Position numbers and translations under genes: made by a program. DNA of 35,743 bases, taken from the NCBI GenBank assembly GCA_030601485.1, contig JAUVTO010000003.1:1-35743 (forward strand), written 5' to 3'. The notes under the pieces are model-generated. The model was not told the origin of the DNA, did not search any database, and saw only the letters and a program-made list of their open reading frames with translations. The stretch comes from Desulfobacterales bacterium. GTDB lineage: Bacteria > Desulfobacterota > Desulfobacteria > Desulfobacterales > UBA11574. Below are positions 7,628 through 35,743 of this stretch, piece after piece. Each line of letters opens with the position of its first letter. The stretch's first letter is position 1.

Positions 7628-8518
7628 TTATCCTCTAAGGGCCTCGGCACCGCCGACTATATCCATCAACTCTGCGGTTATGGATGCCTGCCGAGCCTTG
7701 TTGTATGCCAGAGTGAGATTGTCTATCATATCGTCACAAGCTTTTGACGCATTGTCCATGGCCATCATCCGTGCGGCATGTTCGCTGGTAGATGTCTCCA
7801 GTAACGCACTGTATAACTGAACATATACGCTCCTTGGCAGTAGCTCACCCAAAAGTTCATCAGGAGATGGTTCGCAAATATGCTCCGCCAGATACGGCTT
7901 GTCCTGGTCTTCGGCCTCATCTTCATCAGATTCCATTGGCGGTATGGGAAGCAACTGTTTTATTGTCGCGACCTGCCGTCCCATGCTAATAAACTCTGAA
8001 TAAACGACATAGACTTCGTCATATTCTCCATTAAGAAATCCGTCTATCAAGCCTTTGCCGGCTGTGGAAGCAATATTGAACTTGATTACAGTCCCAATGA
8101 CGTCAATATGCTCGCTTCTGATAGAAATTTGTTTTTTACGACACCAATCCCGTCCCTTTTTGCCAAAGTTTGTAACGGAGAACTCTATATCCTCTCCGGC
8201 TTCTTTTATAAATGAATCGGCTTTGGAAATAAGGTGTGCATTGAAACCGCCGCACAAGCCCCGATCGGAAGTGCACAAAATAATATGTTTTTTTATGACT
8301 TCATCATGCGGCAAAAGAAGAGGGTTTGTTTCTTCTCCTGCTCTTCCTGAAAGACCTCCAAGAACTTCGGCGAACTTTTCAGCATAGGATCGAAAACCCT
8401 CCATATTGGTCTGGGCGCCACGCAATCTGGAAGCCGCCACCATGTTCATGGCTTTTGTGATTTGTTTTGTCTTCTTTACCGCACCTATTTTTGTTTTGAC
8501 CTCTTTTAACGTCGCCAT
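7628..8518 (-). CDS. atpG: ATP synthase F1 gamma subunit
   Basis: 296 aa; TKQITKAMNMVAASRLRGA and C-terminal NLAYNKARQASITAELMDIVGGAEAL-type motif. Confidence 0.98.
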   Translation of the reverse strand: MATLKEVKTKIGAVKKTKQITKAMNMVAASRLRGAQTNMEGFRSYAEKFAEVLGGLSGRAGEETNPLLLPHDEVIKKHIILCTSDRGLCGGFNAHLISKADSFIKEAGEDIEFSVTNFGKKGRDWCRKKQISIRSEHIDVIGTVIKFNIASTAGKGLIDGFLNGEYDEVYVVYSEFISMGRQVATIKQLLPIPPMESDEDEAEDQDKPYLAEHICEPSPDELLGELLPRSVYVQLYSALLETSTSEHAARMMAMDNASKACDDMIDNLTLAYNKARQASITAELMDIVGGAEALRG

Positions 8519-28654: not shown

Positions 28655-30373
28655 TTACCTCTTTTTTTGCTTTTTCTGCTGTGCTTTCTGTATTCTGGCC
28701 CATGTATCCCGTAACGTTACCGTACGGTTGAATACCAGGGCTTGGTCCGAAGAATCCACGGAATCCACGCAGAAATAACCGAGTCTCTCAAACTGGTACC
28801 TGCTACCCGGCGCCGCACCGGAGAGACTGGGTTCGACAAAAAAAGGACGTATCTCCAGAGAATTCGGATTTAAATATGTTTTAAAATTAACATCCTTTTC
28901 CTCATCCGGATTTTCTTTTATAAAGAGATGATCGTAAAGGCGCGTTTCGGCTTTGATCGCGTGGGCCGTAGAAACCCAATGTAAGGTCGCTTTGACCTTC
29001 CGTCCATCCGGGGATGATCCGCCGCGTGTATCCGGATCATAGGTGCAATGCAGTTCGACCACCTGGCCGGTTTTTTCATCCTTAACAACTCTCACACATC
29101 TAATATAATACGCATATCGCAATCGCACCTCACGCCCGGGCGCCAAACGGAAAAACTTTTTCGGCGGGTCCTCTAAAAAGTCGTCCTGTTCGATGTAAAT
29201 CACGCACGAAAAAGGAATCTTGCGTGTGCCCATAGACGGATCTTCAGGGTTGTTCAAGGCTTCCAATTCTTCAACTTTATTTTCGGGATAGTTGTCTATG
29301 ACCACCTTGAGTGGACGCAACACACCCATTACGCGCTGTGCCCGTTTATTCAAATCTTCTCTGATGCTGTATTCGAGCAATGCAATATCAACAATACTGT
29401 CCCGTCGGGCGACTCCGATTCGGTGACAAAAATTGCGGATCGATTCCGATGTATAGCCGCGTCTCCTCAGACCGCTTATGGTCGGCATTCGAGGATCGTC
29501 CCATCCTGAGACATTCCCCACGTCTACCAATTCCACAAGTTTGCGCTTACTTAATACCGTATAGCTGAGATTGAGACGTGCAAACTCGATTTGCTGGGGA
29601 TGGCAATCCACGTTCAGTTGGTCCAGTATCCAGTCGTAGAGTTGGCGATTAATTTCAAATTCAAGGGTGCAAAGAGAATGGGTAATTCCTTCGATGGAAT
29701 CCGAAAGGCAATGGGCAAAGTCGTACATCGGATAAATGCACCACTTGTCACCTGTCCTGTGATGGGGTATCCGTCGAATACGATAAAGCGTGGGATCACG
29801 CATCAGCACATTCGGCGATGCCATATCAATCTTGGCTCGGAGGACGTGGGAACCGTCCTCAAATTCTCCGGCCCGCATACGCTCGAACAGGTCCTGGTTT
29901 TCTCTCACCGAGCGGGTTCGACAGGGACTTTCCTTTCCCGGTGTTGTCAGGGTGCCTCGGCTCTCCCTGATCTCATCAGCGCTCAAACTGCACACATAAG
30001 CCTTGCCGGCTTTGATCAACTGAACGGCATATTGATAAAGCTGTTCAAAGTAATCCGATGCATAGAACAGCCGGTCATTCCAATCGAATCCAAGCCATCG
30101 GACGTCTTCTATTATGGATTCAACATATTCAATATCCTCTTTTCCGGGATTGGTATCATCGAATCGCAAATTGCAAATACCCCCTTTATTTTCTGTGGCA
30201 ATACCGAAGTTAAGACAAATGGATTTGGCATGTCCGATATGCAGATATCCGTTCGGCTCCGGGGGAAAGCGGGTGACAACCCGGCCGTTATTTTTGTTGT
30301 CTTTTAAATCCTGCGCGACAATGTTCCGGATAAAATTAGAAGCCGGAGTGAATTCGGTTTTTGTCATATTCAA
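28655..30373 (-). CDS. glnS: Glutaminyl-tRNA synthetase
   Basis: 572 aa; [74 protein letters not shown]. Confidence 0.97.
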
Positions 30374-30396
30374 AACTCCATTCTTTAGCTATATTT

Positions 30397-30573
30397 ATGA
30401 GTCTGTTGATTAATGAGGATTTTCGTTCAAGATCAAGCCTCCGGCCCGTAGGTCCTACGCCCCGGAGGGGCATGCGAAAAAAATAACCACAGGCATATAT
30501 TTGATATTCCGAGGATTATTTTTTGAGCACAACGCAGAGATTGTGCGAAAAGACCATTAATCAACAGACTCAT
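30397..30573. repeat. 177-bp MITE-like palindromic element between glnS and gltX
   Basis: Perfect 19-bp terminal inverted repeats ATGAGTCTGTTGATTAATG (30397-30415) and CATTAATCAACAGACTCAT (30555-30573), with weaker homology further in; internal GC-rich hairpin CCTCCGGcccGTAGGTCCTACgccCCGGAGG (30438-30468). Confidence 0.9.
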
Positions 30574-32061
30574 TTATGGTTTATCGAAAAGCGCCGGCGC
30601 CTTGCGCAGCCGATCCACAACACGACGCTGTCCTATGGTAATCAAAATATCAAATATCCCAGGGCCGGCAAGCTGGCCGGTAACAACGGTTCGAACACCG
30701 TTGATCAATACCCCGGGTTTGATTTTTAGCTCCTCAGCCATCTCACGAATTGCGTCCTCGGTTTCTGTGGCTGTAAAGCTTTCCAAAGCACCCAACCGAT
30801 CCGCCAGCTTCGGAAACCATTTTTTGAGATCCGGATGCTTGAGAATATTCTTTTTCACCGCCCTGGATTCAATGGGAAACTCGTCGGAAAAATAGGCCCT
30901 CCCACGGGAAACAAAATCGGTTGTAACATGAAAACGGCTGCGAATCAGTCCAATGGTATCCAGATACCAGCGGCGTTTTGTGCCCTCATACTCAGGATTC
31001 CAGATCCCCGCTTTTTCCAGTTCGGCTGTAACATAAGGCTCGATCTCTTCAACCGGCAGGGTCCTCAGATAATGGGCGTTGATACTTATCGCCTTGGGAT
31101 CGGTAAAATATTTTGGATCATTCGTTCTTACATCGAAGATGGAATTGGCACGATTGATTCCCTGAAGAGAAAATGCTTGAATTAATTCCTCCTTGGTAAA
31201 AATTTCTCTGGATTCGGGCGTGGCCCATCCTAATAGGACCAGAAAGTTTACAAATGCCCACGGTAAAAATCCGTGCTCTTTGTAAAAGCGGACGGCAACC
31301 AGTTCGCCATGCTTTCGTTTTGAGATCTTGGCTTTTTTAGGATCCAGGGTGAGTGACATATGCGCAAATTTCGGCACCGGCGCTCCCAGCGCCTGATAAA
31401 TTAAAATCTGCCGGTGTGTATTTGACAGCCCGTCCTGACCGCGAATTACATGGGTAATCCGGTCACGGATATCATCCACCGTATTTGACAACAGATAAAG
31501 GGGCTGACCATTGGAACGGACAATAACAAAGTCTTCAATGTCTTTGTATTTATGATCGATTCTTCCGTAGACGACGTCTTCAAAAGAGACGGAACCTTTA
31601 CCGTTGGGCACTTTCATGCGAAGGGTGTAAGGAATGCCTTGCTCTTCCTTTATGTAAATTTCAATCCTTGTCAATCGCCGACAGGTGCCGTCATACTTTA
31701 AATCTTTTTTCTGCTTCAATGCCGTCTCTCTTTTGCGGTCGAGTTCCTCTTTCGTACAGAAACACTTGTAGGCATGCCCCGACTCCAGCAGTCTGCGTGC
31801 GGCAGCCAGGTGTTCATTAATAAACTGTGACTGGAAATAGGGGCCCTCATCCCAAATTATCCCCAGCCATTTCAAACTTTCAATAATTCCTTGTATAGAT
31901 TCTTCAGTTGACCGTTCCGCATCCGTATCCTCGATTCTAAGGATAAATTTGCCCCCGGTTTTTTGAGCAAATAGCCAGTTAAAAATCGCTGTGCGGGCGC
32001 CGCCGATATGAAGGTAACCGGTGGGGCTGGGGGCAAAGCGTACAATTACTTCTTGTTTCAT
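30574..32061 (-). CDS. gltX: Glutamyl-tRNA synthetase
   Basis: 495 aa; VRFAPSPTGYLHIGGARTAIFNWLFA, LRIEDTDAERS, ISKRKHGELVAV (KISKR motif). Confidence 0.98.
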   Translation of the reverse strand: MKQEVIVRFAPSPTGYLHIGGARTAIFNWLFAQKTGGKFILRIEDTDAERSTEESIQGIIESLKWLGIIWDEGPYFQSQFINEHLAAARRLLESGHAYKCFCTKEELDRKRETALKQKKDLKYDGTCRRLTRIEIYIKEEQGIPYTLRMKVPNGKGSVSFEDVVYGRIDHKYKDIEDFVIVRSNGQPLYLLSNTVDDIRDRITHVIRGQDGLSNTHRQILIYQALGAPVPKFAHMSLTLDPKKAKISKRKHGELVAVRFYKEHGFLPWAFVNFLVLLGWATPESREIFTKEELIQAFSLQGINRANSIFDVRTNDPKYFTDPKAISINAHYLRTLPVEEIEPYVTAELEKAGIWNPEYEGTKRRWYLDTIGLIRSRFHVTTDFVSRGRAYFSDEFPIESRAVKKNILKHPDLKKWFPKLADRLGALESFTATETEDAIREMAEELKIKPGVLINGVRTVVTGQLAGPGIFDILITIGQRRVVDRLRKAPALFDKP

Positions 32062-32420
32062 ATGCAGTTATCCTTTTGTAAGCATTCACGGTTCAGATTT
32101 TTGAAGTGAACCTACAATCTCTGAACCTTTGAACCCTGAACGGTGAAATTAATGTTAAACAACTGTAACTTGAAAATTTTTAAAGCTGCTGGTTTTACAA
32201 TTATTTCCTACAGCATAACCTTCTTTAAGTAGAATTAATCTGATAAATTTGCTATATGTAATTCTCTACACTGTAAAACTGAGAACGTCCATAAAATTTT
32301 TAGCTTTTAAGAAAAAATCCTTCAGGGTTTCGATCAGAAAAAATAACCGGCTTCTCTCGGTTTTGGATAGTCGAAATCGTGGGATTAAACGACTCAACAT
32401 TTATCATAAAAGGGTATCAC

Positions 32421-32615
32421 ATGAGCAATCAAATAGAATGTATGTGTATGCAATGTGGCATATCGATCTATCTTCCCGAAGATTCCGTTATCATGGATGA
32501 TTCGTCCGACGCTGATTCCAAGCTTTTGGACATCCTATTGGTATGCGAGCAATGTGGGGGTCAACTGAGGCTGGTGGGAAAAAGCAGGGATGAGCCTTTT
32601 TACCGGCTCAGGTAA
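32421..32615 (+). CDS. Small Cys-rich putative zinc-ribbon protein
   Basis: 64 aa from ATG at 32421: MSNQIECMCMQCGISIYLPEDS...LLVCEQCGGQLRLVGKSRDEPFYRLR; CxxC pairs; the upstream GTG start in the track is less likely. Confidence 0.55.
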   Translation: MSNQIECMCMQCGISIYLPEDSVIMDDSSDADSKLLDILLVCEQCGGQLRLVGKSRDEPFYRLR

Positions 32616-33055: not shown

Positions 33056-33742
33056 ATGATTGTATCTGCAAATCAGCCTTACTTTTTTCCGTATCCCGGT
33101 TTTTTTTACAAAACGCACCGTTCTGATGTTTTTGTAATTCTGGATGACGTTCAGTTCCCCAGGGGAACCACCTGGACCACTCGAAACAGATTTAAAAACC
33201 ACCAGGGAAGCCTATGGATGACATTGCCTGTAAAAAAGAAAGGGTTGGGTCTGCAAAAGATCAACGCTGTCAGGATATGCCATGACGGCCGATGGGGGAA
33301 AAAACATTTGGAGAGCTTGAGAAATGCTTATGCAAAAGCTCCGTATTTTAAGGACCATCTCAACTTTTTAGAGGAGCTTTTTTCAACAAAATTTGAAAAA
33401 CTTATCGATTTAAATCTTAAGATCATCGGTTATTTGATGAAACATCTTCAAATTGAAACAAAGATCACATTATCGTCCGAGCTTGAGATAAAGGCAAAAG
33501 GAGACAACCTTCTCATAGAAATTTGCAGGAGATTGGAGGCATCGCAGTTTTTGGTCCAGAGCGCTGCCAGAAAGCACTTTGATGCAGACAGGTTCAAAAA
33601 AGCGGGGATTCGACTAACGGACGTTAAACCTCCGTCACCGGTTTATCCTCAACTCTGGGGAAGTTTTATTCCCAACCTGTCCGCACTTGACCTTGTTTTC
33701 AATTGCGGATCAAAAGCCCACGACATCATGATCGCCGGATAA
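33056..33742 (+). CDS. WbqC family protein
   Basis: 228 aa; MIVSANQPYFFPYPGFFYKTHRSDVFVILDDVQFPRGTTWTTRNRF is the WbqC-like N-terminus. Confidence 0.9.
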   Translation: MIVSANQPYFFPYPGFFYKTHRSDVFVILDDVQFPRGTTWTTRNRFKNHQGSLWMTLPVKKKGLGLQKINAVRICHDGRWGKKHLESLRNAYAKAPYFKDHLNFLEELFSTKFEKLIDLNLKIIGYLMKHLQIETKITLSSELEIKAKGDNLLIEICRRLEASQFLVQSAARKHFDADRFKKAGIRLTDVKPPSPVYPQLWGSFIPNLSALDLVFNCGSKAHDIMIAG

Positions 33743-33762: not shown

Positions 33763-35673
33763 ATGAAATTCAAACATACAGCTCCATTGGAAAAAATAAT
33801 TCTCATCTCCGCTCCCTGGCCCCTTTACAGCCGTCCCTCAATTCAAATCGGCACTCTGAAGTCCTATCTAAAAAAAAACTTGCCTGACCTGACGGTCCAT
33901 GCGCATCACTTTTATTTAAAAGTCGCCGAGGCCATCGGATACAGACGCTATCAAGCAATTTCCGAGCGAACATGGCTTGCGGAAACCATTTACGCCGCCC
34001 TGTTATATCCGGAACGCCTCGAGCATATTGAAAAAATATTCTATAAGCAGGCTGCCGGCAAATCTCTGCTGCGGGAAATTCTTTTTGAAACCCTAACCAA
34101 ACAGGTTCAGAAGGTTTCCGAGACTTTTATACACACCATTAACTGGGGGGGATATGGTTTGGCGGGTTTTTCCATATGTCTTTGCCAGTTAACTGCGTCA
34201 CTCTATTTCATCAGGCAGGTTAAAAAGCAATTCCCGAATCTTTTTATTGTTGTGGGCGGTTCCATGTCCACCGCTGATGCAACACGGAATCTGTTTAAAA
34301 TTTTTCCGGAAATTGATGTTGCGATCAACGGCGAAGGTGAACTTCCCCTGAGCCGATTGATTGCTTATCTCAAAGATCCGGGGGGTAAGGAAATGCCTCC
34401 GGTTAATGGGATTATCACATCAGAATCCGCTGAAAAAGAAACACCGGCCGCGTTTCATCAGATGAATGAGTTATCCGCTCTTGTTCCTCCGGATTACGAC
34501 GACTACTTTGAATTGCTGCAATCATTCGGACCGGAGAAAACTTTCTTTCCAACACTTCCCATGGAAATCTCAAGAGGGTGCTGGTGGCGCCGCAAACAAA
34601 AAGGCGAAAAATCTACAGGATGTGCCTTCTGCAATCTAAATCTCCAGTGGGACGGTTACCGATCAAAAGACCCGGAACAGGTGGTTTCGGAGATTGATCA
34701 TCTGACAACCAAGCATAAAACACTTTCCGTAGCCTTTATGGACAACCTTCTCCCTTTGAAAACATCCCGGGACATCTTTAATCGCCTATCAAGACTGGGA
34801 AAGGATTTTCGCCTGTTCGGAGAAATCAGGGCCACCACTCCGGGGTCCGTACTGAAAGCCATGCAGACCGCCGGAATGCAAGAGGTCCAGATCGGTATAG
34901 AGGCGCTAAGCACACGGCTCCTCAAGAAACTCAACAAAGGAACCACGACAATCCAGAATATTGAAATCATGAAACATTGCGAAATAACGGGCATTGCAAA
35001 TTCATCGAATCTGATACTCTATTTCCCGGGTAGCGACCAAAAAGATGTGGACGAAACGCTTCGGAACCTGGATTTTGTTCTGTGGTTTCGTCCGTTAAAG
35101 ATGGTTCACTTCTGGCTCGGTCTGGGCAGCCCTGTATGTCAGAACCCTGAAACCTTCGGACTCAGATCTGTTTTCAACCACCGTAATTATGCCGTCTTAT
35201 TTCCACCGAACGTTTTTAAAGCCATGCGTTTTACCATTCAGTCCTATCGAGGCGACCTCGGGCATCAGAGAAAACTCTGGCAGCCGGTCAAAAAAAAGCT
35301 GGCTGCCTGGAAAAAGTCGTATGACGAACTCCATAAGGGTCCAAAACATGAGAACATTTTAACCTTTCGTGACGGCAGAAATTTTATGATCATACGTCAG
35401 AAAAGACTCAACGGCCGAGCCCTGACACACCGCCTGGAGGGAACGTCCCGGGCAATCTATCTTTTTTGCCTGCGGCACCGGTCTTTAAAAAGAATCCTTG
35501 CCCGGTTCCCGTCGATGGCTGCAGACAGGATCGAGCCTTTTTTAAAAATAATGGTCGATAAAAAGCTGATGTTTCGAGAAAACGATAAATATCTGAGCTT
35601 AGCCGTACCTGCCAGCCTGCATTGGTCAACCTCAATTTCTAATCCGCCAAATCAAAACGTGAATTTATTTTGA
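33763..35673 (+). CDS. B12-binding domain radical SAM protein related to RiPP-maturation radical SAM proteins
   Basis: Start moved from 33703 to ATG 33763 (MKFKHTAPLEKIILISAPWPLYSRPSIQIGTLKSYLKK). N-terminal B12-binding-like region (VVGGSMSTADATRNLFKIFPEIDVAINGEGE), RGCWWRRKQKGEKSTGCAFCNLNLQWDGYRSKDPEQVVSEI, C-terminal winged-helix-like tail. Confidence 0.85.
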   Translation: MKFKHTAPLEKIILISAPWPLYSRPSIQIGTLKSYLKKNLPDLTVHAHHFYLKVAEAIGYRRYQAISERTWLAETIYAALLYPERLEHIEKIFYKQAAGKSLLREILFETLTKQVQKVSETFIHTINWGGYGLAGFSICLCQLTASLYFIRQVKKQFPNLFIVVGGSMSTADATRNLFKIFPEIDVAINGEGELPLSRLIAYLKDPGGKEMPPVNGIITSESAEKETPAAFHQMNELSALVPPDYDDYFELLQSFGPEKTFFPTLPMEISRGCWWRRKQKGEKSTGCAFCNLNLQWDGYRSKDPEQVVSEIDHLTTKHKTLSVAFMDNLLPLKTSRDIFNRLSRLGKDFRLFGEIRATTPGSVLKAMQTAGMQEVQIGIEALSTRLLKKLNKGTTTIQNIEIMKHCEITGIANSSNLILYFPGSDQKDVDETLRNLDFVLWFRPLKMVHFWLGLGSPVCQNPETFGLRSVFNHRNYAVLFPPNVFKAMRFTIQSYRGDLGHQRKLWQPVKKKLAAWKKSYDELHKGPKHENILTFRDGRNFMIIRQKRLNGRALTHRLEGTSRAIYLFCLRHRSLKRILARFPSMAADRIEPFLKIMVDKKLMFRENDKYLSLAVPASLHWSTSISNPPNQNVNLF

Positions 35674-35743
35674 GCCCTTAGGGTTCGCGAAGAAATAAAT
35701 TTACATTTTCAGGAGTCGAGGCGCCCGCATGGCAAGGCGCGGG

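Follow-up and report, generated by a model that had tools for sequence, protein, structure and literature searches.

Organization of the radical SAM gene and its product

The window, meaning the whole stretch of 35,743 nucleotides that was analysed, is the entire contig 177 of a draft genome of 1.85 Mb with 80% completeness. It contains a gene for a predicted cobalamin-dependent radical SAM enzyme directly behind a WbqC-family gene, and the features of this pair are listed in Table 1.

Table 1 Features of the radical SAM gene and its upstream neighbour, in window coordinates
Feature	Position	Strand	Evidence
Class-1 cobalamin-dependent radical SAM enzyme, NLNLQW subfamily of TIGR03975, 636 aa	33763-35673	+	ATG at 33763, stop at 35673; TIGR03975 363.5 bits; Radical_SAM PF04055; AlphaFold pLDDT 90.8; PDB matches OxsB, TsrM, TokK, CysS, MgmA
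N-terminal segment and predicted cobalamin-binding Rossmann-like domain (about residues 11-206)	33793-34380	+	PF02310 below cut-off; strand/helix alternation in the model; invariant Gln142 in GFSxCLCQLT
Cluster motif SRGCWW-x11-CAFC (residues 270-290)	34570-34632	+	Cys273, Cys287 and Cys290 as expected 4Fe-4S ligands
Extended basic loop between Cys1 and Cys2, RRKQKGEKSTG (residues 276-286), plus flanking Trp275	34585-34620	+	Low sequence identity, positive charge, model pLDDT 66-73
Clade signature NLNLQW-x2-YR-x-K after Cys3 (residues 291-302)	34633-34668	+	Present in all second-class members checked
Predicted C-terminal winged-helix domain (residues 533-613), bbb-aaa plus hairpin wing	35359-35601	+	Domain model pLDDT 90.2; winged-helix fold matches
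WbqC-family gene, ending 20 bp upstream of the radical SAM gene	33056-33742	+	PF08889, E 6e-70; same gene order in about 10 loci from the window's family

When the protein was compared with the NCBI models, it passed the TIGR03975 cut-off of 281.85 bits with a match over the complete profile (positions 1-606 of 606), and thus belongs to the RiPP-maturation radical SAM protein 1 family as NCBI defines it, which the first-pass annotation had suspected from the overall layout. The same model matches all 58 aligned members of the group described below (E ≤ 1e-10). Pfam assigned the Radical_SAM domain, and a PF02310 match at residues 117-199 stayed below its cut-off (26.4 against 32.1). The cluster motif SRGCWWRRKQKGEKSTGCAFC places the cysteines as C273-X13-C287-X2-C290, so that the unusual first spacing read from the DNA is real in this open reading frame. 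These three cysteines, expected to hold the 4Fe-4S cluster, are invariant in the 58 members and in nine RiPP-type members of the family, and Gln142 and Gly135 are likewise invariant in both groups.

Predicted structure

An AlphaFold model of the full protein, computed for the protein only, reached a mean pLDDT of 90.8 and displayed a Rossmann-like cobalamin region with alternating strands and helices, a radical SAM barrel and a C-terminal winged helix. The protein is thus predicted to have the class-1 cobalamin radical SAM layout, with the Rossmann domain N-terminal to the barrel that carries the three cluster cysteines. A search of PDB sequences with the single window protein gave no match, while an alignment profile and Foldseek both recovered OxsB, TsrM, TokK, CysS and MgmA, of which the first three have been named class-1 cobalamin radical SAM enzymes (PMC13331322). 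OxsB, TsrM, TokK and CysS share with the window protein the cobalamin Rossmann domain in front of the barrel and are its best PDB matches in both sequence and fold, yet their identity to it is 12-17% and their substrates differ. In the profile alignment with OxsB, the Asn of the OxsB motif SVNFGQ corresponds to Cys139, which adjoins the invariant Gln142, and judging from this alignment Cys139 may lie beneath the cobalt.

The C-terminal domain modelled alone (pLDDT 90.2) gave a bbb-aaa arrangement with a hairpin, and its best fold matches were generic winged helices, all of them weak (best above E 0.005, none below E 0.001), in agreement with the winged-helix-like tail that had been noted before. 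The order bbb-aaa, by which the RRE is defined (PMC12710340), is thus present in the predicted domain together with a wing. No PqqD match in Pfam was obtained for this domain among 55 members, and no RRE appeared among its top fold matches.

A probable deep sister branch within TIGR03975

To place the protein within its family, 297 genomes of the phylum were surveyed with TIGR03975. The results showed 47 genomes above the cut-off, in two score classes. The first, of RiPP type, comprises 9 genomes with about 570-660 bits and often several copies, and the second, which includes the window, comprises 38 of the 297 genomes (about 13%) with about 284-398 bits and an essentially single-copy gene. 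All first-class proteins carry SRGCWW..C.FC, mostly followed by GLNG or a similar motif, whereas all second-class members checked carry CxFCNLN[LIV]QW..YR.K. The two also differ in FWLGxGSP (NLNLQW clade) against (D)RFSxY (RiPP type), and near the C-terminus in IIRQ against I.DTR.

A maximum likelihood tree was calculated in quick search mode from the alignment with the loop removed (58 NLNLQW and 9 RiPP-type rows, all of the same phylum) and rooted on the chosen outgroup. The two sets of rows lie on opposite sides of one branch with an SH-aLRT support of 100 and a length of 1.55 changes per site on each side, and within this same-phylum sampling no NLNLQW row groups with the RiPP-type members. 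Given the two score classes, the fully supported long branch and the motif contrasts, the NLNLQW proteins form a separate subfamily. Most likely they are a deep sister branch of the TIGR03975 RiPP C-methyltransferases, marked by CxFCNLN[LIV]QW, and this signature offers a simple rule for splitting TIGR03975.

Compared with known TIGR03975 RiPP enzymes (PoyB, PoyC, the bottromycin and the pheganomycin-type enzymes), the window clade keeps the full-length domain order, SRGCWW...CxFC, the invariant Gln142 and the C-terminal winged helix. It differs in having NLNLQW for GLNG, FWLGxGSP for (D)RFSxY and RQ for DTR, in scoring about 200 bits lower, in being single copy and in having no linked precursor of the Nif11 or NHLP families tested. 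Because sequence motifs of the active-site region differ between the two types, a new substrate for the window enzyme, as had been suggested, is plausible.

The Cys1-Cys2 loop

The distinct subfamily proposed at the outset was tied to the X13 spacing, and this part of the proposal did not stand. Among 50 public-genome loci from Desulfobacterota-type MAGs (mostly Desulfobacterales, two labelled Syntrophobacterales), nearly all that include the motif have X13, the others X14 or X21, and this spacing persists in nearly all homologs as identity falls from 87% to 42%. A sequencing error or a private insertion is thereby ruled out. In the alignment of 58 members below 85% identity, X13 is found in 32, next to X4 in 15, X9 in 1, X12 in 2, X14 in 3, X15 in 1, X17 in 2 and X21 in 2. 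Since the loop length changes at least 10 times on the tree within the clade (three changes over the tree as a whole if only short and long loops are told apart), X13 does not define the subfamily; it is a lineage feature inside a clade for which CxFCNLN[LIV]QW is the better marker.

The C-X7-C-X2-C motif given for the family at the outset is correct for PoyB/PoyC and the bottromycin enzymes (PMC5682303). Within the phylum, the RiPP-type members have X4, X7 or X9. The first spacing is therefore not constant in the family, and the X13 of the window protein departs from a spacing that is not strict. QueE, with CX14CX2C, likewise has a long loop on an otherwise usual cluster site (PMC4389238), although it is not cobalamin dependent and its reaction is unrelated.

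Measured between WW and the last residue before Cys2, the loop has 19% identity among the 32 X13 members; the corresponding values are 62% for the upstream and 77% for the downstream flank. Its net charge is positive in 40 of 42 long loops and negative in none; Lys and Arg account for 33% of its residues, compared with 14% in the protein. The Lys/Arg-rich character noticed earlier is therefore conserved, and so, mostly, is the length. At pLDDT 66-73 the loop is the least certain part of the model. Charge and mostly length being kept while the sequence drifts, the comparison suggests a flexible basic loop that would act in contact rather than in catalysis.

Search for linked precursors

We then examined whether precursor peptides accompany the enzyme, using two curated families, Nif11 and NHLP, genome-wide. 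A linked leader of either family was found in 0 of 41 genomes with an NLNLQW gene; Nif11 leaders were present in 2 of them, on contigs other than that of the enzyme, and NHLP was absent from all 41. Of the RiPP-type genomes, 4 of 9 had a Nif11 leader no more than a few kb from the enzyme, and NHLP exceeded its cut-off in 3 of 9. The contrast in linked leaders, 0/41 against 4/9, gives a Fisher p of 0.0005, the genomes being related and so not independent. A scan of small open reading frames recovered Nif11-like and NHLP leaders beside RiPP-type genes; around NLNLQW genes it gave no RiPP family among the 25 most frequent or best-scoring families listed, and no short open reading frame is conserved beside the gene across lineages. 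In plasmid records the only relatives, near 25% identity, are of RiPP type, and those of Streptomyces and Sinorhizobium adjoin pheganomycin-type and Nif11 precursors. A role of the window enzyme in RiPP maturation, which the resemblance to that family had suggested, is thus not supported, as no Nif11 or NHLP precursor is linked to genes of its clade in 41 genomes.

Genomic neighbourhood and distribution

No neighbour is common to all NLNLQW loci. In about 10 loci, all from the window's taxonomic family, the gene immediately upstream is WbqC, at a distance of about 0 to 150 bp; the flanks in the remaining lineages lack it. The linkage from which co-expression had been inferred is conserved within this family only, where WbqC is probably an operon partner, and WbqC as a general partner is ruled out outside it. 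In one close relative (L006), a 62-residue WbqC remnant at 7789-7974 lies upstream of an intact radical SAM gene.

What follows position 35743 may be judged from relatives only: in the closest two (L004 and L005, 87% and 85% identity), the next genes encode a TerB-DnaJ protein, an M48 peptidase and a DnaJ-type protein. Some loci of the CX4C branch (L107, L121-L125, L130 and L133) have, overlapping the enzyme gene or right behind it, a gene for an uncharacterised protein, c3, of about 260-300 aa with invariant WVG-E and GxxFHExMKLKEN and a C-terminal TPR region. As a general partner c3 was rejected, being present in many genomes without the enzyme and represented in Desulfobacterales carriers by TPR-level chance matches only. 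An uncharacterised family of 115-117 aa (c4/c2) with no Pfam match is encoded directly downstream of the enzyme in 11 related loci (L010, L011, L012, L014, L015, L018, L019, L028, L032, L048 and L050); being restricted to these loci and conserved over its entire length, it does not resemble a precursor and was rejected as one. The eight loci scanned with Rfam gave no match, so a cobalamin riboswitch in the neighbourhood was also discarded.

The enzyme is patchily present within the order. In a locus of the same genus (L052:1354-1931, genome G001), the radical SAM gene lacks residues 100-525, its N- and C-terminal pieces being abutted, and the WbqC and TerB-DnaJ neighbours around it are intact. 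This deletion points to decay of a dispensable gene, and together with the patchy presence it indicates an accessory, non-essential function.

Proposed function

Judging from homology, the three cysteines would hold a 4Fe-4S cluster at which SAM is split into a 5'-deoxyadenosyl radical, and a second SAM would methylate the cobalamin in the Rossmann domain. The radical would then abstract hydrogen from an unactivated carbon, which would receive the methyl group, as in the scheme described for PoyC-type enzymes (PMC5682303). With a cluster geometry that is presumably the usual one, as in QueE, X13 would form an extended surface loop adding positive charge near the mouth of the active site, possibly steering an acidic substrate or partner.

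Because the gene is single copy and stands alone, and no substrate is encoded beside it, the substrate is probably a host protein, RNA or metabolite made elsewhere. A precedent is MgmA, also among the fold-search matches: this B12 radical SAM methylase modifies a cellular enzyme and not a RiPP, MgmA and Mmp10 both acting on MCR. TIGR04014, the model for MgmA (MCR glutamine C-methyltransferase), matches the window protein at superfamily level only (41 against a cut-off of 360 bits). On this basis we consider it reasonably likely that the NLNLQW proteins are a stand-alone subfamily of class-1 cobalamin radical SAM methyltransferases with a probably non-RiPP substrate made elsewhere, and with moderate confidence we regard a cellular protein or some other widely available molecule as a better candidate than a RiPP precursor.

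Several points weigh against this assignment. The class-1 fold can also perform chemistry other than methylation, as in OxsB. An undescribed type of precursor could be missed, a precursor can lie far from the enzyme (a recognisable one was nearby in only 4 of 9 RiPP-type loci), and the winged helix could serve as an RRE for leader-peptide binding. That the enzyme is a RiPP C-methyltransferase after all, with the winged helix as its RRE and a precursor that is of an unfamiliar type or encoded at another site, would accord with the window protein passing TIGR03975 and all 58 members matching that model, with the bbb-aaa order and with the C-terminal RRE fusions that RRE-Finder reports in proteusins (PMC7470986). 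We nevertheless regard it as unlikely, considering the missing Nif11 and NHLP linkage, the lack of a conserved short neighbouring frame, the single copy in patchy housekeeping neighbourhoods, and a C-terminal domain with no PqqD match in Pfam and no RRE among its top fold matches.

A corrinoid or another small molecule, such as a B12 lower-ligand, lipid or cofactor precursor, is a rather improbable substrate. In a few loci the enzyme gene has neighbours related to cobalamin or cobalt: L137 carries CobU and a CobD-like gene, L129 a gene for a BtuF-like binding protein, L135 one for a NikL-type nickel/cobalt transporter subunit and L141 one for a methionine-synthase-like protein. The enzyme also resembles BzaD, HpnJ, HpnR and BchE weakly. 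However, such neighbours occur in 4-5 of about 58 lineages, all distant and differing among themselves; as raw counts without background comparison they are compatible with B12 dependence. The resemblance to BzaD, BchE and HpnR is at superfamily level with scores far below the cut-offs, and the Rfam scan of the eight loci was negative. It is most improbable that the enzyme acts with WbqC in modifying surface polysaccharides or sugars: the close pairing within the window's family speaks for it, but elsewhere in the phylum the pair is absent, and in L006 the radical SAM gene is intact beside a mere remnant of WbqC.

Returning to the stand-alone methyltransferase, we tentatively propose, as a possibility that we would not yet call probable, that the phylum-wide subfamily C-methylates a housekeeping protein or RNA in sulfate-reducer-type bacteria, and that the long-loop branch would dock an acidic substrate via its basic loop. 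Were a cellular protein or RNA the substrate, the RiPP label would hide a post-translational or RNA modification that is new, and cobalamin radical SAM chemistry would, beyond MCR methylation, have another target in the core machinery. Our literature search found no description of a non-RiPP TIGR03975 branch. The RiPP label on the NLNLQW branch is probably an over-annotation and is best treated as unproven. Automatic labelling as RiPP C-methyltransferase can lead genome-mining tools to call peptide clusters where there are none.

Other genes upstream in the window

Upstream of WbqC, a small conserved CxxC-type protein (32379-32615, forward strand) and a CxxCxxCC protein (PF03692; 32632-32976, reverse strand) are encoded head to head, and relatives have homologs of both in the same position. 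Further upstream, two adjoining genes on the reverse strand (28655-32061) encode class-I tRNA synthetases of the Glu/Gln type with 572 and 495 aa. Relatives have a homologous pair upstream as well, and the arrangement is apparently ordinary.
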